NCBI GenBank assembly: GCA_003171065.1
Contig: PMXQ01000110.1
Span: 1 to 37,208 of the forward strand
Reading direction: 5' to 3'
DNA: 37,208 bases
Source of the DNA: Chloroflexota bacterium
GTDB lineage: Bacteria > Chloroflexota > Limnocylindria > Limnocylindrales > CSP1-4
In this document: positions 19,374 to 28,417 of the stretch, one piece after another
Layout of the letters: the number at the start of each line of letters is the position of its first letter
Numbering within the stretch: the stretch's first letter is position 1
Notes under the pieces: generated by a model
Told to the model about the DNA's origin: nothing
What the model saw: the letters and a program-made list of their open reading frames with translations, nothing else
Databases searched by the model: none
Program-made: the position numbers and the translations under genes

Positions 19374-22181
19374 CTAGCGGCTGACCCGTTCGGCGAGCCT
19401 CGCCACCAGCTCCTCCAGCTCGGCGGCTCGCGCTTTCGCGCCATCGACCACGACCGGCGGCGCCTTGGAGATGAATGCCTCATTGGTGAGCCTGGCGCGG
19501 ACGGCGGCAAGCAGCCCTTGCGCCTCGGCCAGCTCGCGTTCCAGGCGCGCGCGGTCGCGCTCGTCCTGGGCCTCGTCCCGGGCCGCCGGGCGGACCACTG
19601 CCTCGATCTCGCCGGCGATCACCGAGAGGCCGCCGGTCACTCCCCGTCGAACCGATTCGGGGCTCAGCTCGCGGCCGAGCGGCTTGGCGCGCGCAAGCCG
19701 CTCGATCGCCGGCCGGAGCGCCTCGAAGGTGGGCCCGAGCGACTCGGGCACGTAGATGTCCAGCGGCAGCCAGGCCGCCGGTTCGATGCGCGCCTCGGAC
19801 CTGGCGTTGCGCACCGCCCGCACCAGGTCGATCAGGGCGGCCACTTCCATTTCGGCGGCCGCGTCGGTGGCATCGGCATCGACGGTCGGCCAGTCGGCGA
19901 CGATCAGCAGGCTCGGATCCTGGGCCCCGTGGGGAAGCCGCTCCCAGATCGTCTCGGTCACGAAGGGCATGATCGGATGGAGCAGCCGCAGGTATGTATC
20001 CAGAACGTCAACCAGCGTCCACCAGGTGGCTTCGCGTTCGTCCGCGCCGAGGCGGTCGTCGCCGAGGCGGATCTTCGCCAGCTCCACGGCCCAGTCGCAG
20101 TACTCGTTCCAGATCGCCTCGTACAGGATCTGGCTGGCGTCACCGAACCCGTACAGGCTCATCGCCTCATCCACCGCGGCCACCGTCGCCGCAGCCCGCG
20201 AAAGGATCCAGCGGTCGGCCGGGCCCACCTTGTCGCGCGCGGGCAATTCCCTCGGCGCGCCCGCCGGAATCGAGGCCGGACGCGCGCCCAGGACGAACCG
20301 AGCCACGTTCCACAGCTTGTTTGTGAAGTTACGGGCGTTCTCGAGCTTCTCGGCGCCCAGGCGGGCATCGTTGCCGGGGGCCGTGCCGTTGACCAGGGCG
20401 AACCGCAGCGCGTCGGCGCCCACCTCCTCGATCGTCTCGAGCGGATCGACGGAGTTGCCCTTCGTCTTGGACATCTTCTGGCCGTACGGGTCGCGGATCA
20501 GGCCCGACAGGTAGACGGTGTGGAAGGGAGCCTCGCCGGTCAGGTGGATGCCCAGCATCATCATCCGGGCGACCCAGAAGAAGATGATGTCATAGGCGGT
20601 TTCCATGACCGAGCCCGGGTAGAAGCGCTCGAAGTCGCGCGTCTTCTCCGGCCAGCCGAGGGTCGAGAACGGCCACAGGCCCGAGCTGAACCAGGTGTCG
20701 AAGATGTCTTCGTCCTGGCGCAGCTCGGCGGCCGGACGAGCGCACACCTCGCACGCCGCCGGGCCGGCCGGGTCGGCCGTCACCGTCGTGTGGCCGTCCG
20801 GGCAGTACCAGGCCGGGATTCGGTGGCCCCACCACAGCTGGCGACTCACGTTCCAGTCGCGCATCCCGGTCATCCAGTGTTCCCAGACCTTGACGAAGCG
20901 CTCCGGCAGAATCTGCGTCCTGCCCGAGCGGGTCGCCTCCAGGGCGGCTGCCGCGAGCGGCGCGACGCGCACGAACCACTGCGTCTTGAGCCGAGGCTCC
21001 ACGATGTCATCGGAACGCTGGCAGCGGCCGAGCAGCATCTCGTGGGGCTTCGTCGATGCCAGGTCGCCGCGTGCTTGCAGGGCCTCCACGATCTGGCGGC
21101 GGGCCTCGTAGCGGTCCAGGCCGGCGAATTGCGCGCCGATCTCGTTGATCCGTGCGGCGTCGTCGAGGACGGTGATCATTGCCAGGCCGTGGCGCTTGCC
21201 GGTCTCGTAGTCGTCCTGGTCGTGGGCCGGGGTGATCTTGACCGCGCCGGTCCCGAAAGCCCGATCGACCACGGGGTCGGCGATGATCGGCACCGTGCGA
21301 TCGACGAACGGGATCATCGCCTCGCGTCCGATGAGCGCGGTGTAGCGTGGGTCGTCCGGATTGACCGCCACGGCCGTGTCGCCCAGGAGCGTCTCCGGGC
21401 GCGTGGTCGCCACCGCGATCCAGGCGTTGGGGTCGGGCGCGCCAGTCGCTTCGTCGATGAGGTGGTAGCGCATCGTCCAGAGGCTGCCCGTTGTTTCGTT
21501 GGGGATGACCTCCAGGTCTGAGACGCTCGTCCGACAGCCGGGGCACCAATGGATCAGGGCTTCGGTCCGGTAAGCCAGGCCTTCGCGATAGAGGCGCAGG
21601 AAGGCCTCGCGCACGGCTCGGGCGGAGACCTCGTCCATCGTGAAGCGCAGGCGGCTCATGTCGAGCGAGGCGCCGAGGCGGCGCTGCTGACTGAGGATCG
21701 TCTCGCGGGTCTCGCGGACGAACTCCCACATCGCCTCGAGATACTTCTCGCGGCCGAGGGTCTGTCGCGTCTCGCCCTTCCTGGCGAGCAGCTTGTCCAG
21801 CACGTATTGGGCCGCGATCGAGGCGTGGTCCAGGCCGGGCAGGAAGAGCGCCGGCCGACCCTGCATTCGGGCGTGCCGGGTCATCAAGTCCTCGACCGTG
21901 GAGCGCTGCGCGTGGCCCAGGTGCAGGGAGCCGGTCACGTTGGGCGGCGGCTGGATGATGACGAAGGGCGCCTTGCTCCAGTCGGCGCGCGAGCCCTTGC
22001 CGTCGGGGTTGAAGACGTCGGCGTCGAGCCAGCGCTGGTAGATGGCGTGCTCGACATCGGCCGGGCGATAGGCCTTCGCCAGCTCAGTCTCGCCGACCGC
22101 GCGGCCCCGGTCGGCCGCGCCGCCGCGATCGGCCGCGCCGCTGCTCGCCCCCGGCTTTCGCGTCTTCGCACCGTCCGACAT
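19374..22181 (-). CDS. valS: valine--tRNA ligase
   Basis: PPPNVTGSLHLGHAQRSTVEDLM, RHARMQGRPALFLPGLDHASIAAQ, DPYGQKMSKTKGNSVDPLETI, C-terminal coiled coil (EAQGLLAAVRARLTNEAFISKAPPVVVD). ATG at 22181 follows GGAG; the ORF track uses TTG at 22196. Confidence 0.97.
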   Translation of the reverse strand: MSDGAKTRKPGASSGAADRGGAADRGRAVGETELAKAYRPADVEHAIYQRWLDADVFNPDGKGSRADWSKAPFVIIQPPPNVTGSLHLGHAQRSTVEDLMTRHARMQGRPALFLPGLDHASIAAQYVLDKLLARKGETRQTLGREKYLEAMWEFVRETRETILSQQRRLGASLDMSRLRFTMDEVSARAVREAFLRLYREGLAYRTEALIHWCPGCRTSVSDLEVIPNETTGSLWTMRYHLIDEATGAPDPNAWIAVATTRPETLLGDTAVAVNPDDPRYTALIGREAMIPFVDRTVPIIADPVVDRAFGTGAVKITPAHDQDDYETGKRHGLAMITVLDDAARINEIGAQFAGLDRYEARRQIVEALQARGDLASTKPHEMLLGRCQRSDDIVEPRLKTQWFVRVAPLAAAALEATRSGRTQILPERFVKVWEHWMTGMRDWNVSRQLWWGHRIPAWYCPDGHTTVTADPAGPAACEVCARPAAELRQDEDIFDTWFSSGLWPFSTLGWPEKTRDFERFYPGSVMETAYDIIFFWVARMMMLGIHLTGEAPFHTVYLSGLIRDPYGQKMSKTKGNSVDPLETIEEVGADALRFALVNGTAPGNDARLGAEKLENARNFTNKLWNVARFVLGARPASIPAGAPRELPARDKVGPADRWILSRAAATVAAVDEAMSLYGFGDASQILYEAIWNEYCDWAVELAKIRLGDDRLGADEREATWWTLVDVLDTYLRLLHPIMPFVTETIWERLPHGAQDPSLLIVADWPTVDADATDAAAEMEVAALIDLVRAVRNARSEARIEPAAWLPLDIYVPESLGPTFEALRPAIERLARAKPLGRELSPESVRRGVTGGLSVIAGEIEAVVRPAARDEAQDERDRARLERELAEAQGLLAAVRARLTNEAFISKAPPVVVDGAKARAAELEELVARLAERVSR

Positions 22182-22200
22182 CGCTCGCTCCGTCAATCAA

Positions 22201-22233
22201 GCGACCCGCTCGTCCAGCGGACGAACGGGTCGT
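22201..22233 (-). terminator. terminator-like hairpin of the T-box, competing with the antiterminator
   Basis: Minus strand CGACCCGTTCGTCC-GCT-GGACGAGCGGGTCG, a long GC stem. The GTTCG it consumes is also the 3' arm of the CGAAC/GTTCG antiterminator helix (22248-22252 with 22222-22226). Confidence 0.78.
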
Positions 22234-22445
22234 GGTACCACCTGCTGGTTCGGCTTCGCCCGGCGCCGGTCATCCCGGCCGCCGTCACTGGCGATGCCCT
22301 CTCGGCGCGCTATCGGGCGCCTCCCGCACCGCTCACGAGCTACGTTCGCGCCGTTCCGACTGCGGGACTTTCAGCCTGCGCCCGTGGCGCGGGTCCCGCT
22401 CTCTGCTCGCCGGATGGCGGCGCTACTCCTCTCGGTCAACACCGT
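22201..22445 (-). promoter_or_regulatory. T-box leader (tRNA-Val-sensing) upstream of valS
   Basis: Minus strand: GACCGAGAGGAGTA-GCGCCG ... GCAGAGAGCGGGAC ... GGCTGAAAGTCC ... CGGCGC-GAAC-GTA-G-CTC-GTGAGC ... CGAACCAGCAGGTGGTACCACG. AGUA and GAAC flank the GCGCCG/CGGCGC helix, specifier codon GUA (Val) is complement(22341..22343), and the T-box TGGT can pair with A73CCA. Confidence 0.94.
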
Positions 22446-23028
22446 GAAGGCGCCGATCGTAGCACAGGGGTTGTCACGACCCGGTGGGCGCGGGCGTGGG
22501 CTGGCTCGTTGGCGCTGGAATCACCGAAGACCGGGTCGTCGAAGGCGAAGGAGCCGCTGGGGGCGTTGGCGGCGGAGTGATCGTGGCCGCGGGCCGGAGC
22601 GATCCCTGAACGGCAGAGTGCCGGCGACACCGGTCCGGGCAATTCGCCCCGTTCTGCGGCTTCGGCGAGAAGCTCTCCTGTGTGGCGCTCCTTCGCCGCC
22701 AGCTCGGTGGCGAAGGCAGCGCGCATCTCCGGATCACCCCGACCTCGGTTTCGGCAAGATTCCCGCCGTGCGGTCGCTATTCAGGATCAGGCCCGGGTCG
22801 GGCGTGCCCCGGGGCCGCAACGAGCGCGCTTCTGGTGTCACACGCGGCCAGAACCGGCCGACAAGGAGCGCTCCGACCCCACCGGGCACCGATTCGCGCC
22901 CTCTCGTGCGCGCCGCGCCGGCGACACTTCTGCGTAACGCCAGCCACCTGGGAATGTAGCAGAAACGGGCCGGGCGCCGGAGCCCACGCAGTCGGCCCCG
23001 TCTCCAGGACCCAAGGGGCGGGCGGCTC

Positions 23029-23127
23029 GGGGCAATTCGCCGCTGCCGGGGCAGTTCGCCGCTGGCTGGGCAGTTCGGCGTCATAAGGGGCTTACGGTAG
23101 CGAGTGGCGGCGGGGCAGTTCCGACCC
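23029..23127. repeat. short GGGGCA[A/G]TTCGCCGCTG direct repeats upstream of the FAD/Fe-S oxidoreductase
   Basis: GGGGCAATTCGCCGCTG at 23029, GGGGCAGTTCGCCGCTG at 23048, TGGGCAGTTCGGCGTC at 23067 (19-bp period), GGGGCAGTTCCGACCC near 23112. Confidence 0.65.
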
Positions 23128-23156
23128 GCCCTCCCGCCGGCCGGTATGCTGCGCCG

Positions 23157-26100
23157 GTGACGAACCCGACCGCTGCCGCCCGCAAGGTCACCGCCGAGCG
23201 TGAGTCTCTGGCGGCCGATCTGCGCGGCCACGTCCGCGGCGAGGTCCAGTTCACGCCGGGCGACCGCGCCCTGTACGCCACCGATTCGTCGAACTACCGC
23301 CAGCTTCCGATCGGCGTCGTGCGGCCGCTCGACATAGACGACCTGGCGGAAACGATCCGCGTCTGCCGCGACCACGACGCGCCGGTGACGATGCGCGGCG
23401 GCGGAACGAGCCTGGCCGGTCAGACCACGAACCGAGCCGTAGTGGTGGACGTCTCGCGCCACCTGAACCGCATCGTCGAGCTGGACCCTGGCCGGCGCGT
23501 CGCCCGCGTCGAGCCGGGCGTGATCCTCGACGACCTCCGCGCCGCCGCCGAACGGCACCACCTGACCTTCGGGCCGGACCCGGCCACGCACGACCGCTGC
23601 ACGCTGGGCGGGATGCTCGGCAACGACTCGTGCGGCGCCCACTCGATCATGGCGGGGCGCACGAGCGACAACGTCGAGTCCCTCGACGTGCTCACCTACG
23701 ACGGGCTGCGCCTGACGGTGGGCCGTACCGTGGACGAGGAACTGGAACGGATCTGCGCGGAGCAGGGTGCGCGGGGCGAGATCTACCGCTCCCTCCGCTC
23801 CCTCCGGGACCGCCACGGGGCGCTGATCCGCGAGCGCTACCCGAAGCTGCCGCGACTTGTCTCCGGCTTCCCGCTCGGGGCGTTGCTGCCGGAGAACGGC
23901 TTCGACGTCGCCCGTTCGCTGGTCGGGACGGAAGGCACCTGCGTCACCATCCTCGAGGCGACGGTTCGACTCGTGCCCAGCCCGCCCGGTCGAGCGCTGC
24001 TGGTTCTCGGGTTCCCCGACGTCTTCGAGGCGGCGGATCGAACGCCCGAGATCATGACGGCGGGACCGATCGGCCTCGAAGGGTTCGACGATCGACTGGT
24101 CGAAGCCTGCCGGCGCAAGGGCCTGAACCAGGCCGCGATCGCAGGGCTGCCGGAGGGCGGCGGCTGGCTGCTGGTCGAGTTCGGAGGCGAGACAGCCCGT
24201 GAAGCCGAATCGAAGGCGCGCCAGGCTGCCGGGCGTTTCGGCGGCAGCGGGTCGGCCCGCGTGGTCGTCGACGCGGCAAAGCAGGAGGCCCTCTGGACCC
24301 TGCGCGAATCCGCCGTGGGCGCCACGGCCGTGGTCCCCGGCAAGCCCTCCACGTATCCCGGCTGGGAGGATTCGGCCGTTCCGCCCGAGCGGCTGGGCGT
24401 TTACCTGCGCGAGCTCGACGCGCTGATCGGCCGGTTCGGGTTCGAACGCACCTTCTACGGCCACTTCGGCGACGGTTGCCTTCACCTGCGCACTGAATTC
24501 GACTTCCGAACGCCCGAGGGTCTGCGTGCCTTCCGCTCCTTCATCGAGCACGCGGCCGACCTGGTGGTGCGGCACGGCGGCTCACTCTCGGGCGAGCACG
24601 GCGATGGCCAGGCCCGGGCAGAGCTGCTGCCGCGCATGTTCGGGCCGGAGCTGGTCGCGGCCTTCCGGGAGTTCAAGTCGATCTGGGATCCGCAGGGGCG
24701 CATGAACCCGGGCAAGGTCGTCGATCCGCTGCCCCTGGACGCGGACCTGCGGCCGGCCCTCCTGCTCGCCAACCCCACGACGATCTTCGGCCTGCCCGAC
24801 GACGGCGGCTCGCTGGCCCGGGCGGTGGCGCGCTGCGTCGGCGTGGGCAAGTGCCGCCGCGAGTCGGGCGGGGCGATGTGCCCGACGTTCCAGGCCACGC
24901 ACGAGGAGCGCCACTCCACGCGCGGGCGGGCACGGTTGCTGTGGGAGATGCTCGAGGGCGAGGCGCTGACGGATCTGTGGCGCAGCGATGCCGTTCTCGA
25001 GGCCCTGGATCTGTGCATCGCCTGCAAGAGCTGCAAGAACGACTGCCCGGTCCAAGTGGACATCGCCACCTACAAGGCCGAGTTCATGGCCCATCACTAC
25101 GCCCACCGGTTGCGGCCGCGAGTTGCCTACTCGATGGGCCTGATCCACTGGTGGGCGCACCTGGCGCGGATCGCGCCGGGGCTGGCCAACTCGATCGGGG
25201 CGGCGCCGGGGATTGCGGGGCTGGCCAAGCTCGTCGCCGGTGTGGATGGGCGGCGGTCCTTGCCGCGGTTCGCCGGCCGGACATTCCGCCGCCAGCTCCC
25301 CGACGGAGTGGCGGACCTGGGCGGCGCGCGTGGGGCCGAGCGGCGGGTCGTTCTCTTCGCCGACACCTTCACCGAGGGCTTCGCGCCCTCGCAGGGGCTC
25401 GCGGCACTGCGGGTTCTTCAGGCTGCCGGCTTCTCGGTCGAGGTACCGCGGGCCGACCTGTGCTGCGGCCGCCCGCTCTACGACCGCGGCTTCCTGGGGC
25501 AGGCCCGGCGGTTGCTCGCCCAGATTCTCGATGCCTTCGAGCCGGAGCTGGACTCGGGCGTGTCGGTCGCGGTCCTGGAGCCATCGTGCGAGGCGGTTTT
25601 CCACGACGAGCTGGCGAACCTGTTCCCGGCCGACCCTCGCGCCCGGCGGCTGGACGAGATGACCGTGGGCCTCGGCGCGTTCGTAGCGGCGCACCCGCGC
25701 GAGTTCACCGCCGCGTTGCCCGGCCGGCTCGCGGCCCCGACCGTCCTCCACGGGCACTGCCACCAGAAGGCGACTGTAGGGATGGCGGCCGAAGAGGCGG
25801 CCCTGCGATCCATCGGCCTGGCGCCGGCCCAGCCGGAACCCGGTTGCTGCGGCATGGCCGGCGCTTTCGGGTTCGAGCGCGGCGAGCACTACGAGCTGTC
25901 GTTGAAGATCGGCGAGCGAGCACTCCTCCCGGCGGTTCGTGCCGCCGCTCCGGAAGCCCTGCTCGTCGCGGACGGTTTCAGCTGCCGCGAACAGATCACG
26001 CAGTCGGGCGGCCGGCGCGCCCTTCACCTCGCCGAGGTGCTGGAGATGGCACTGGCGCCTGCGACCGCGCCTGCCGGCGTCGGCCCCGGTCGACGAGGTG

Positions 26101-26159
26101 ACGGCGGGCCCTTGCCCATGCCTTCGGCGAATGCCACGATGGACGGTGGAAAGAGGTGA
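23157..26159 (+). CDS. fused FAD-linked oxidase and Fe-S oxidoreductase (GlcD/GlpC-type, D-2-hydroxyacid dehydrogenase-like)
   Basis: FAD domain (PVTMRGGGTSLAGQTTNRAVVVDVSRHLNRI), LGNDSCGAHSI, C-terminal ferredoxin motifs (CIACKSCKNDCPVQVDIATYKAEF) and CCG motifs (DLCCGRPLYDRG, GCCGMAGAFG). GTG start. Confidence 0.95.
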   Translation: MTNPTAAARKVTAERESLAADLRGHVRGEVQFTPGDRALYATDSSNYRQLPIGVVRPLDIDDLAETIRVCRDHDAPVTMRGGGTSLAGQTTNRAVVVDVSRHLNRIVELDPGRRVARVEPGVILDDLRAAAERHHLTFGPDPATHDRCTLGGMLGNDSCGAHSIMAGRTSDNVESLDVLTYDGLRLTVGRTVDEELERICAEQGARGEIYRSLRSLRDRHGALIRERYPKLPRLVSGFPLGALLPENGFDVARSLVGTEGTCVTILEATVRLVPSPPGRALLVLGFPDVFEAADRTPEIMTAGPIGLEGFDDRLVEACRRKGLNQAAIAGLPEGGGWLLVEFGGETAREAESKARQAAGRFGGSGSARVVVDAAKQEALWTLRESAVGATAVVPGKPSTYPGWEDSAVPPERLGVYLRELDALIGRFGFERTFYGHFGDGCLHLRTEFDFRTPEGLRAFRSFIEHAADLVVRHGGSLSGEHGDGQARAELLPRMFGPELVAAFREFKSIWDPQGRMNPGKVVDPLPLDADLRPALLLANPTTIFGLPDDGGSLARAVARCVGVGKCRRESGGAMCPTFQATHEERHSTRGRARLLWEMLEGEALTDLWRSDAVLEALDLCIACKSCKNDCPVQVDIATYKAEFMAHHYAHRLRPRVAYSMGLIHWWAHLARIAPGLANSIGAAPGIAGLAKLVAGVDGRRSLPRFAGRTFRRQLPDGVADLGGARGAERRVVLFADTFTEGFAPSQGLAALRVLQAAGFSVEVPRADLCCGRPLYDRGFLGQARRLLAQILDAFEPELDSGVSVAVLEPSCEAVFHDELANLFPADPRARRLDEMTVGLGAFVAAHPREFTAALPGRLAAPTVLHGHCHQKATVGMAAEEAALRSIGLAPAQPEPGCCGMAGAFGFERGEHYELSLKIGERALLPAVRAAAPEALLVADGFSCREQITQSGGRRALHLAEVLEMALAPATAPAGVGPGRRGDGGPLPMPSANATMDGGKR

Positions 26160-26162
26160 GGC

Positions 26163-26546
26163 GTGGCCTACATCGAAGATGTCGTCGAGATGACCAAGCA
26201 CAACACGCTGTTCCGGAAGGTGCTTGCAACCGGCGCGCACAGCCAGATAGTCGCGATGAGCCTCGCGCCCGGAGAGGAGATCGGCGAAGAGGTTCACGCC
26301 GACGTCGACCAGGTCCTCGTCTTCGTGACCGGCGTCGGCGACGCCGTGATCGAGGGCAAGAAGACGCCGATCGGCCCGGGCTGGCTCGTGCAGGTGCCCG
26401 CCGGGGTGCGGCACAACTTCGTCAACACCGGGTCCCAGGATCTGCGCCTGTATACCGTCTACTCGCCGCCCGAGCACGCCCCGGGAACCGTTCATCGCAC
26501 CAAGGCGGACGCCGACGCCGCGGAGGCCGCCGAGCACGCCCACTGA
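26163..26546 (+). CDS. cupin-domain protein
   Basis: MSLAPGEEIGEEVHADVDQVLVFVTGVGDAVIEGKKTPIGPGWLVQVPAGVRHNFVNTGSQDLRLYTVYSPPEHAPGTVH; start 3 nt after the upstream stop. Confidence 0.9.
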   Translation: MAYIEDVVEMTKHNTLFRKVLATGAHSQIVAMSLAPGEEIGEEVHADVDQVLVFVTGVGDAVIEGKKTPIGPGWLVQVPAGVRHNFVNTGSQDLRLYTVYSPPEHAPGTVHRTKADADAAEAAEHAH

Positions 26547-26809
26547 CGGCGCGATCGAGCCAACAGCTACGGCAAGCTGCAGATGTTCGACTGACTCGAA
26601 CGCGCTGCGCCGTTCAGATCCCTTACGCACGACCCGGAGGCCGGCTCTCGGCGCGCCAGCGGCGCCCCCCAAACGTTCTTCGTTATCTCGGCCTCGAATC
26701 CTCTCGCCCCGACCGATGCGACAGAGCGCCAGCGTGGGTGAGTGTGCGCATACCCAGAGGGGTGCCTGAGTCGACCCGGGTTGCCGGACTTGTGTTGGCT
26801 GCTACCAGC

Positions 26810-27781
26810 CTACGGCTGGTATAGCTCGGCCGAGGCGAGATACGTTCCTCGATCCTCGCCTCCGGCGATCAGGACGCGGCCGTCGGGGAGCAGCGTGGCG
26901 GTGGAGTAGTAACGACTGGTAGCCATCGAGCCGGTCGGGCCGAACGAGCCTGTCTTGGGGTCATACAGCTCGGCCGAGGCGAGAGGCGTTAATCCGTCGT
27001 GACCTCCGGCGATCAGGACGCGGCCGTCGGGGAGCAGCGTCGCGGTGTGCCAGAGGCGAGTGGTAGCCATCGAGCCGGTCGGACTGAACGAGCCTGTCTT
27101 GGGGTCATACAGCTCGGCCGAGGCGAGCGAGGCAGATTCGTTGAAGCCTCCGGCGATGAGGACGCGGCCATCGTGGAGCGCTGTGGCGGTGTGGCCTGTG
27201 CGAGTGGTTTTCATCGAGCCGGTCGGGCTGAACGAGCCTGTCTTGGGGTCATACAGCTCGGCCGAGGCGAGATACGTTGATTGGGCGTAGCCTCCGCCGA
27301 AGCCTCCGGCGATCAGGACTCGGCCGTCGGAGAGCAGGGTGGCGGTGTGGAACTCGCGAACGGTAGTCATCGAGCCGGTCGGACTGAACGAGCCTGTCTT
27401 GGGGTCATACAGCTCGGCCGAGGCGGTGTCAGTCGCGTCGTTGTCAACTCTGCCTCCGGCGATCAGGACGCGGCCGTCGGAGAGCAGGGTGGCGGTGTGG
27501 AACTCGCGAACGGTAGTCATCGAGCCGGTCGGACTGAAGCGCGGTGGCGGCGTGGGTGAAGCGGTGGGAGTCGGGGCAGGTGTCGGCGTGGGTGAAGCGG
27601 TGGGAGCCGGCTCGGGAGTCGGCGACGCGGTGGTGGACGGAGTGGGCCTATCTATCGGGCTCGGCGTTGCCGTCGCAGCGGCGCAGGCCGCCAGGCTCGC
27701 CCCGATCAACAGGACGGCCATCAGCCGCCCAACTCTGGCGTAGCTCCGGCGACCGCCGGAGGATCCTTTGACCTGGTTCAT
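26810..27781 (-). CDS. secreted lipoprotein with kelch-like beta-propeller repeats
   Basis: ATG at 27781 (MNQVKGSSGGRRSYARVGRLMAVLLIGASLAAC lipobox), Thr/Pro/Ser linker, then repeats of FSPTGSMTTVREFHTATLLSDGRVLIAGG...ASAELYDPKTGS. Confidence 0.87.
   Translation of the reverse strand: MNQVKGSSGGRRSYARVGRLMAVLLIGASLAACAAATATPSPIDRPTPSTTASPTPEPAPTASPTPTPAPTPTASPTPPPRFSPTGSMTTVREFHTATLLSDGRVLIAGGRVDNDATDTASAELYDPKTGSFSPTGSMTTVREFHTATLLSDGRVLIAGGFGGGYAQSTYLASAELYDPKTGSFSPTGSMKTTRTGHTATALHDGRVLIAGGFNESASLASAELYDPKTGSFSPTGSMATTRLWHTATLLPDGRVLIAGGHDGLTPLASAELYDPKTGSFGPTGSMATSRYYSTATLLPDGRVLIAGGEDRGTYLASAELYQP
26860..27540 (-). repeat. five near-identical in-frame kelch repeat units (144-156 nt period)
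   Basis: tgtcttggggtcatacagctcggccgaggc recurs at 26951, 27095, 27239 and 27395 (spacing 144, 144, 156 nt); catcgagccggtcgg[g/a]ctgaac is also repeated. Confidence 0.9.
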
Positions 27782-27790
27782 CTCTCCCCC

Positions 27791-28004
27791 AATCCGGCTC
27801 AGTTCCTGAACCGGATTGAGACGCTGGCGACCGCCCGGCGGTGATGGCAAACGGGGCAGCGAAGGCTTGCGCCAGCCGAGCGTCGGGCCGGGCGCGATCC
27901 CACTGAGGGTCGGCAGGAAGGATGCCGACCCTCTGGGGGCCGTCACAGTCCTCGGTCGACCGATGGCAGCGGATCTTGCGGCGTGGCCATGGCAACACCT
28001 CCCT
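27791..28004 (-). promoter_or_regulatory. candidate structured 5' leader of the kelch lipoprotein (mini-ORF plus hairpins)
   Basis: Minus strand: GGGAGGTG SD, 15-codon ORF MATPQDPLPSVDRGL* (27943-27990), perfect hairpin GAGGGTCGGC/GCCGACCCTC (27905-27933), GCTGGCG/CGCCAGC pairing, and AATCCGG...CCGGATT hairpin (27791-27817) just before the gene's SD. Confidence 0.42.
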
Positions 28005-28417
28005 GTCGCGGATCTGGACCGAGGACCTCGTGCCACGATCCTGCGGGTCGGTCTCGCCACTGGCTCGCCGCGATCCCGGCGGCCGGGGTGTGGGCCGCGT
28101 GTCAGAGCCCCTATCTGGGATGATTCGCCACCGGGGGACGGGGCCACAGCGTGGGCCAGCGCACTGTCACCCGAGCTGCCAGTGGACTGGCAGCCAGGCC
28201 CTCGTTCGATTCATGCGCCGGGCGACTACTATCCACGGTCGGCGCAAGTGGGGCCAGTCCGCGGGCACGCTCGCATACTCATCCGGGAGGGACCTGAGCG
28301 TGAGTCACCCTGTCGCTCCGTCGGCACGGGTCAGTGCCGGCCGCGGACCGAAGCCTGGATCTTGATACCAGTCGCCGGGTGAATCGATCGCAAGTCGAGG
28401 CGCGGCGGGCGAGCCTC

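Follow-up and report, generated by a model that had tools for sequence, protein, structure and literature searches.

The window (the whole analysed stretch of 37,208 nucleotides from a Chloroflexota bacterium) appears to carry, upstream of the valine--tRNA ligase gene valS, a class I (transcriptional) T-box riboswitch that controls this gene via tRNA-Val(UAC), a reading drawn from the sequence to which we assign a probability of about 0.88. The complete leader occupies positions 22446–22202 of the minus strand and ends shortly 5' of valS. In the window's genus, the specifier of this T-box has probably changed from GUC to GUA, and the sensor thereby from tRNA-Val(GAC) to tRNA-Val(UAC) with the amino acid kept, within a lineage whose T-boxes are nearly all missed by the Rfam cut-off.

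Organization and conservation of the valS leader

The valS ORF matched the NCBIfam profiles NF004349 (1043.6 bits) and TIGR00422 (927.2 bits), each over its cut-off, and its ATG is located at 22181–22179 on the minus strand. Upstream of the leader, GTGCTA and then CGAT, or a similar sequence in its place, were found at a near-constant distance, with small variation, in 23 aligned leaders, and transcription would start at approximately 22449. The features are listed in Table 1, and all of the elements named in the initial annotation (AGUA/GAAC, GCGCCG/CGGCGC, GUA, AGAGAGC, distal loop, T-box and terminator) were recovered on the minus strand.

Table 1. Features of the valS leader region in the window
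Feature	Position	Strand	Basis
Extended -10 promoter TGC-TACGAT	22456..22464	-	Conserved upstream of leader in relatives
Stem I, base helix CACGGU/GCGGUG up to distal loop	22327..22446	-	RF00230, pair counts
Kink-turn-like motif UUGAC (5' strand) and lower helix CGAG	22431..22439	-	CGAG pairs with 22339-22336
AGUA, 5' side of specifier-loop S-turn	22424..22427	-	Alignment columns invariant
AGAGAGC, distal bulge of Stem I	22398..22404	-	RF00230, sequence, alignment
Extra apical hairpin GCGCC-ACG-GGCGC, inserted before distal loop	22378..22390	-	Alignment
Distal loop element GGCTGAAAGTCC (RNA form GGCUGAAAGUCC)	22365..22376	-	Sequence, alignment
Specifier GUA (Val), frame GAA-N-NNN-R	22341..22343	-	Comparison of leaders
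Stem IIA hairpin GGCGC/GCGCC, loop CCGAUAGC	22304..22321	-	Pair counts
Stem III GCCGG-GAUGA-CCGGC	22265..22279	-	Covariation
Antiterminator CCAGC-A-GG/CC-GCUGG with ACGA/UCGU	22214..22248	-	RF00230, pair counts
Terminator hairpin, 14 bp, loop GCU, then CUUGAUUGA	22202..22232	-	Folding, alignment
Shine-Dalgarno GGAG of valS	22188..22191	-	Sequence
valS, valine--tRNA ligase, 935 aa, putatively regulated gene	19374..22181	-	NCBIfam profiles and Pfam

The gene was located in 41 genomes, the window's own among them, and the leader alignment comprised 19 same-genus loci (own included) and four sister-genus loci. Stem I contains the AGUA/GAA specifier loop, the kink-turn and the AGAGA/distal loop pair, and its helices are 79-100% paired with compensatory changes; the lower helix CGAG is 100% paired in the 23 leaders. 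The helix GCGCCG/CGGCGC is formed by 22423-22418 with 22353-22348, and GAAC lies at 22347-22344 (minus strand). Stem IIA is 100% paired, with one pair changed on both sides, and four of the five pairs of Stem III show changes on both sides across relatives. A candidate IIA/B pseudoknot between the loop CCC and a downstream GGG was seen by eye and is broken in L045 and L048. The extra apical hairpin is missing from all four sister-genus leaders aligned. In 6 of the 19 same-genus leaders (L036, L040, L044, L098, L099 and L100), Stem I has a further hairpin-like sequence immediately 5' of the AGAGA bulge (alignment columns 46-96).

When a structure of 47 pairs was counted on this alignment, 93.0% of cells were paired (90.0% in shuffles), 13 pairs were changed on both sides (5.0 in shuffles) and the covariation score was 0.110 (0.068 in shuffles), none of which was reached by any of 500 shuffles; the shuffles disregard relatedness, and a single row, the window sequence, supplied the structure, so that these figures support it, short of proof. 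Slid versions of the structure paired 26–42% of cells. Most compensatory changes fall in the upper helices of Stem I and in Stem III. RNAalifold, applied to all aligned leaders, produced a mixed fold containing distant pairs and showing little covariation.

Specifier and putatively sensed tRNA

The specifier loop of the window reads GAA-C-GUA-G, with the G after GUA at the loop end, and GUA is present in 19 of 19 same-genus aligned leaders. The sister-genus loops are GAA-G-GUC-G, GAA-G-GUU-A and GAA-G-GUC-A, and 13 additional leaders of valS, from family and class, carry GUC or GUU; these were read under the same frame rule, except that of L135, GGAA-GUC-A, which was read by eye. Since GUA, GUC and GUU are all valine codons, the frame is fixed without the name of the downstream gene, and the valine specifier proposed in the initial annotation is thus borne out by relatives that use all three codons in one frame. 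A specifier placed directly after GAA (CGU, Arg) was rejected, as this frame gives Gly (GGU) or Arg in relatives and the frame one base further on gives Val in all. In TBDB, 2–4 nt separate the specifier from the loop's 3' end, and GUA accounts for 61% of Val T-box specifiers (PMC7778990), so the GUA specifier itself is not unusual.

The genome encodes tRNA-Val with the anticodons UAC, GAC and CAC, among which tRNA-Val(UAC) has an anticodon matching GUA and an ACCA end complementary to the UGGU bulge (22240-22237, minus strand). GUC is the specifier in most of the sister genera and families examined, and GUC/GUU/GUA offer a natural series of valine specifier changes for asking what selects the sensed isoacceptor.

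Family match and the Rfam threshold

A search of the whole window against Rfam 15 at the gathering score reported no T-box. In a permissive scan of 22150–22600, RF00230 gave two separate matches in the correct order, one over Stem I (22448–22326; 31.0 bits, E 3.3e-5) and one over the antiterminator (22242-22219; 12.1 bits). Both scores are below the gathering cut-off of 93 bits. The RF00230 hit anticipated by the initial annotation is therefore present by E-value, locally and genome-wide (5.1e-5), but lies under the gathering score. In the whole-genome search, the valS leader ranked third among four T-boxes, the other three preceding trpE (C40), pheS and thrS (C53); these targets were assigned from downstream ORFs and NCBIfam, and trpE was the top NCBIfam match at its locus, but under the cut-offs of that profile and on a partial frame. 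Across the class, an RF00230 match at E<=0.001 was detected in 130 of 151 genomes and a match over the cut-off in only four of 151, indicating that the cut-off here is a reporting threshold of the library and not a feature of the RNA. A new detail is a lineage in which nearly all T-boxes score below the Rfam threshold, and the present cut-off conceals most T-boxes of this GC-rich, poorly studied lineage. No RF00230 match was detected in the genomes searched of a sister family whose genome size is about 1 Mb; the presence of such a reduced-genome family beside this lineage would point to Limnocylindrales (Chloroflexota).

That Rfam leaves the leader unreported at its gathering score would fit a chance resemblance without any T-box, an explanation that we regard as extremely improbable given the genome-wide E-value, the conserved position before valS, the covariation and the swaps among valine codons. 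The RF00230 E-values and the conservation with covariation place the element beyond chance.

A tRNA-Val(GAC) gene precedes the thrS T-box leader by about 40 bp (L004 ~1390-1740; in the own genome C53:143141-143492), and it is present in the thrS leader region in six of eight same-genus regions checked. It is possible that this tRNA and the thrS leader share a transcript.

Predicted control of valS transcription

The T-box sequence GGTGGTACCACG occupies 22242-22231 (minus strand). All 11 pairs of the antiterminator are unbroken in the 23 leaders, and wherever a sequence has letters at these positions, CCAGC/GCUGG, GG/CC and ACGA/UCGU are paired. The initial annotation had also described an antiterminator that excludes a terminator; antiterminator and terminator do share bases, at 22232-22214, whereas the proposed CGAAC/GTTCG pairing proved wrong, its CGAAC arm being lost in L045, L048 and L100, and CCAGC·A·GG/CC·GCUGG is the conserved one. 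Folded alone, the antiterminator has −10.8 and the terminator hairpin −26.4 kcal/mol. The hairpin is near-invariant in relatives, and neither it nor the antiterminator varies much, in keeping with two helices drawing on the same bases; being invariant, the antiterminator yields no covariation. The 12 nt 3' of the hairpin contain on average 49% U across relatives, and clear T-runs follow it in other families of the class, e.g., TTTTTGTTTG. The U-tract is good in outgroups; the copy in the window, CUUGAUUGA, is eroded and interrupted, and because of this weakness termination may be leaky.

By analogy with the family, the valS leader may be expected to bind tRNA, to respond to its charging and to terminate transcription. 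Stem I would recognise the tRNA-Val anticodon UAC by means of its GUA specifier, and its distal loops would grip the tRNA elbow. With uncharged tRNA, base pairing of its 3' ACCA to the UGGU bulge would stabilise the antiterminator, allowing RNA polymerase to proceed into valS. With charged tRNA, transcription would end at the 14-bp hairpin, the more stable of the two folds.

The end of the hairpin lies about 20 nt from the ATG, which, together with the interrupted U-tract, could suit a valine T-box acting on translation, in which the 3' hairpin would keep ribosomes from loading efficiently close to the start codon. Such control seems improbable, as the hairpin has no anti-Shine-Dalgarno and GGAG lies outside it, relatives have U-rich tails 3' of the hairpin, and in this genome's trpE leader the terminator is well over 100 nt away from the start. 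A hairpin with the Shine-Dalgarno in its loop, suggested by folding the 3' end of the leader in the window, was discarded, being by eye absent in L035. Since the hairpin shares bases with the antiterminator, relatives carry U-rich tails and the Shine-Dalgarno is outside, transcription attenuation is the best reading of these features and most likely the mode of control.

Leader loss, complete or partial, was detected upstream of valS in 2 of 21 same-genus genomes: G008 (L038) retains just the terminator's 3' arm and G018 (L041) just the antiterminator/terminator part, and in both an ORF ends shortly upstream. These remnants look like loss of regulation, with assembly error as a possible alternative. 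Together with the weak U-tract of the window, they would agree with a decayed T-box whose regulation has been lost in the present genome too; this is very improbable, considering that the core elements of the window are all intact and that compensatory changes persist across the genus. In genus g16, the motif was absent in both genomes examined. One genome, G016, has two valS copies (G016:C1:3653-6385 and G016:C58:25416-28206), and the leader of the second copy (L095) and the G019 leader (L034) look identical, suggesting binning contamination.

Comparison with known T-boxes and genomic surroundings

The leader shares with class I valS T-boxes of RF00230 the AGUA/GAA specifier loop, AGAGA bulge, distal loop, Stem IIA, Stem III, antiterminator with UGGN bulge, overlapping terminator and downstream synthetase gene. 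It is unlike them in being GC-rich and in its extra Stem I apical hairpin, weak U-tract and sub-cut-off score. In Chloroflexi, three T-boxes were described in Dehalococcoides, one for ileS and two trp-related, and no valS T-box is listed for the phylum in that survey (PMC2494555); as in Dehalococcoides, the present T-boxes occur outside Firmicutes, and trpE is also a target in the window's genome. A literature search limited largely to openly accessible journals found no report of valS control by a T-box in a lineage of this kind. A valS target and a GUA specifier are ordinary for T-boxes; the near-total failure of the Rfam cut-off in this lineage and the apparent isoacceptor change in one genus go beyond the routine, and a well-supported valS T-box is added in a poorly studied GC-rich lineage.

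Between valS and a Kelch-repeat ORF (26810-28147, minus strand) lie two minus-strand ORFs (22734-24575 and 24582-26672; 613 and 696 aa) for which Pfam gave no match at E 0.01. A c-di-GMP-II-GAG riboswitch (RF03169, 60.3 bits, E 1e-9) is located at 28038-28121 on the minus strand, where it precedes or overlaps the start listed for the Kelch-repeat ORF.
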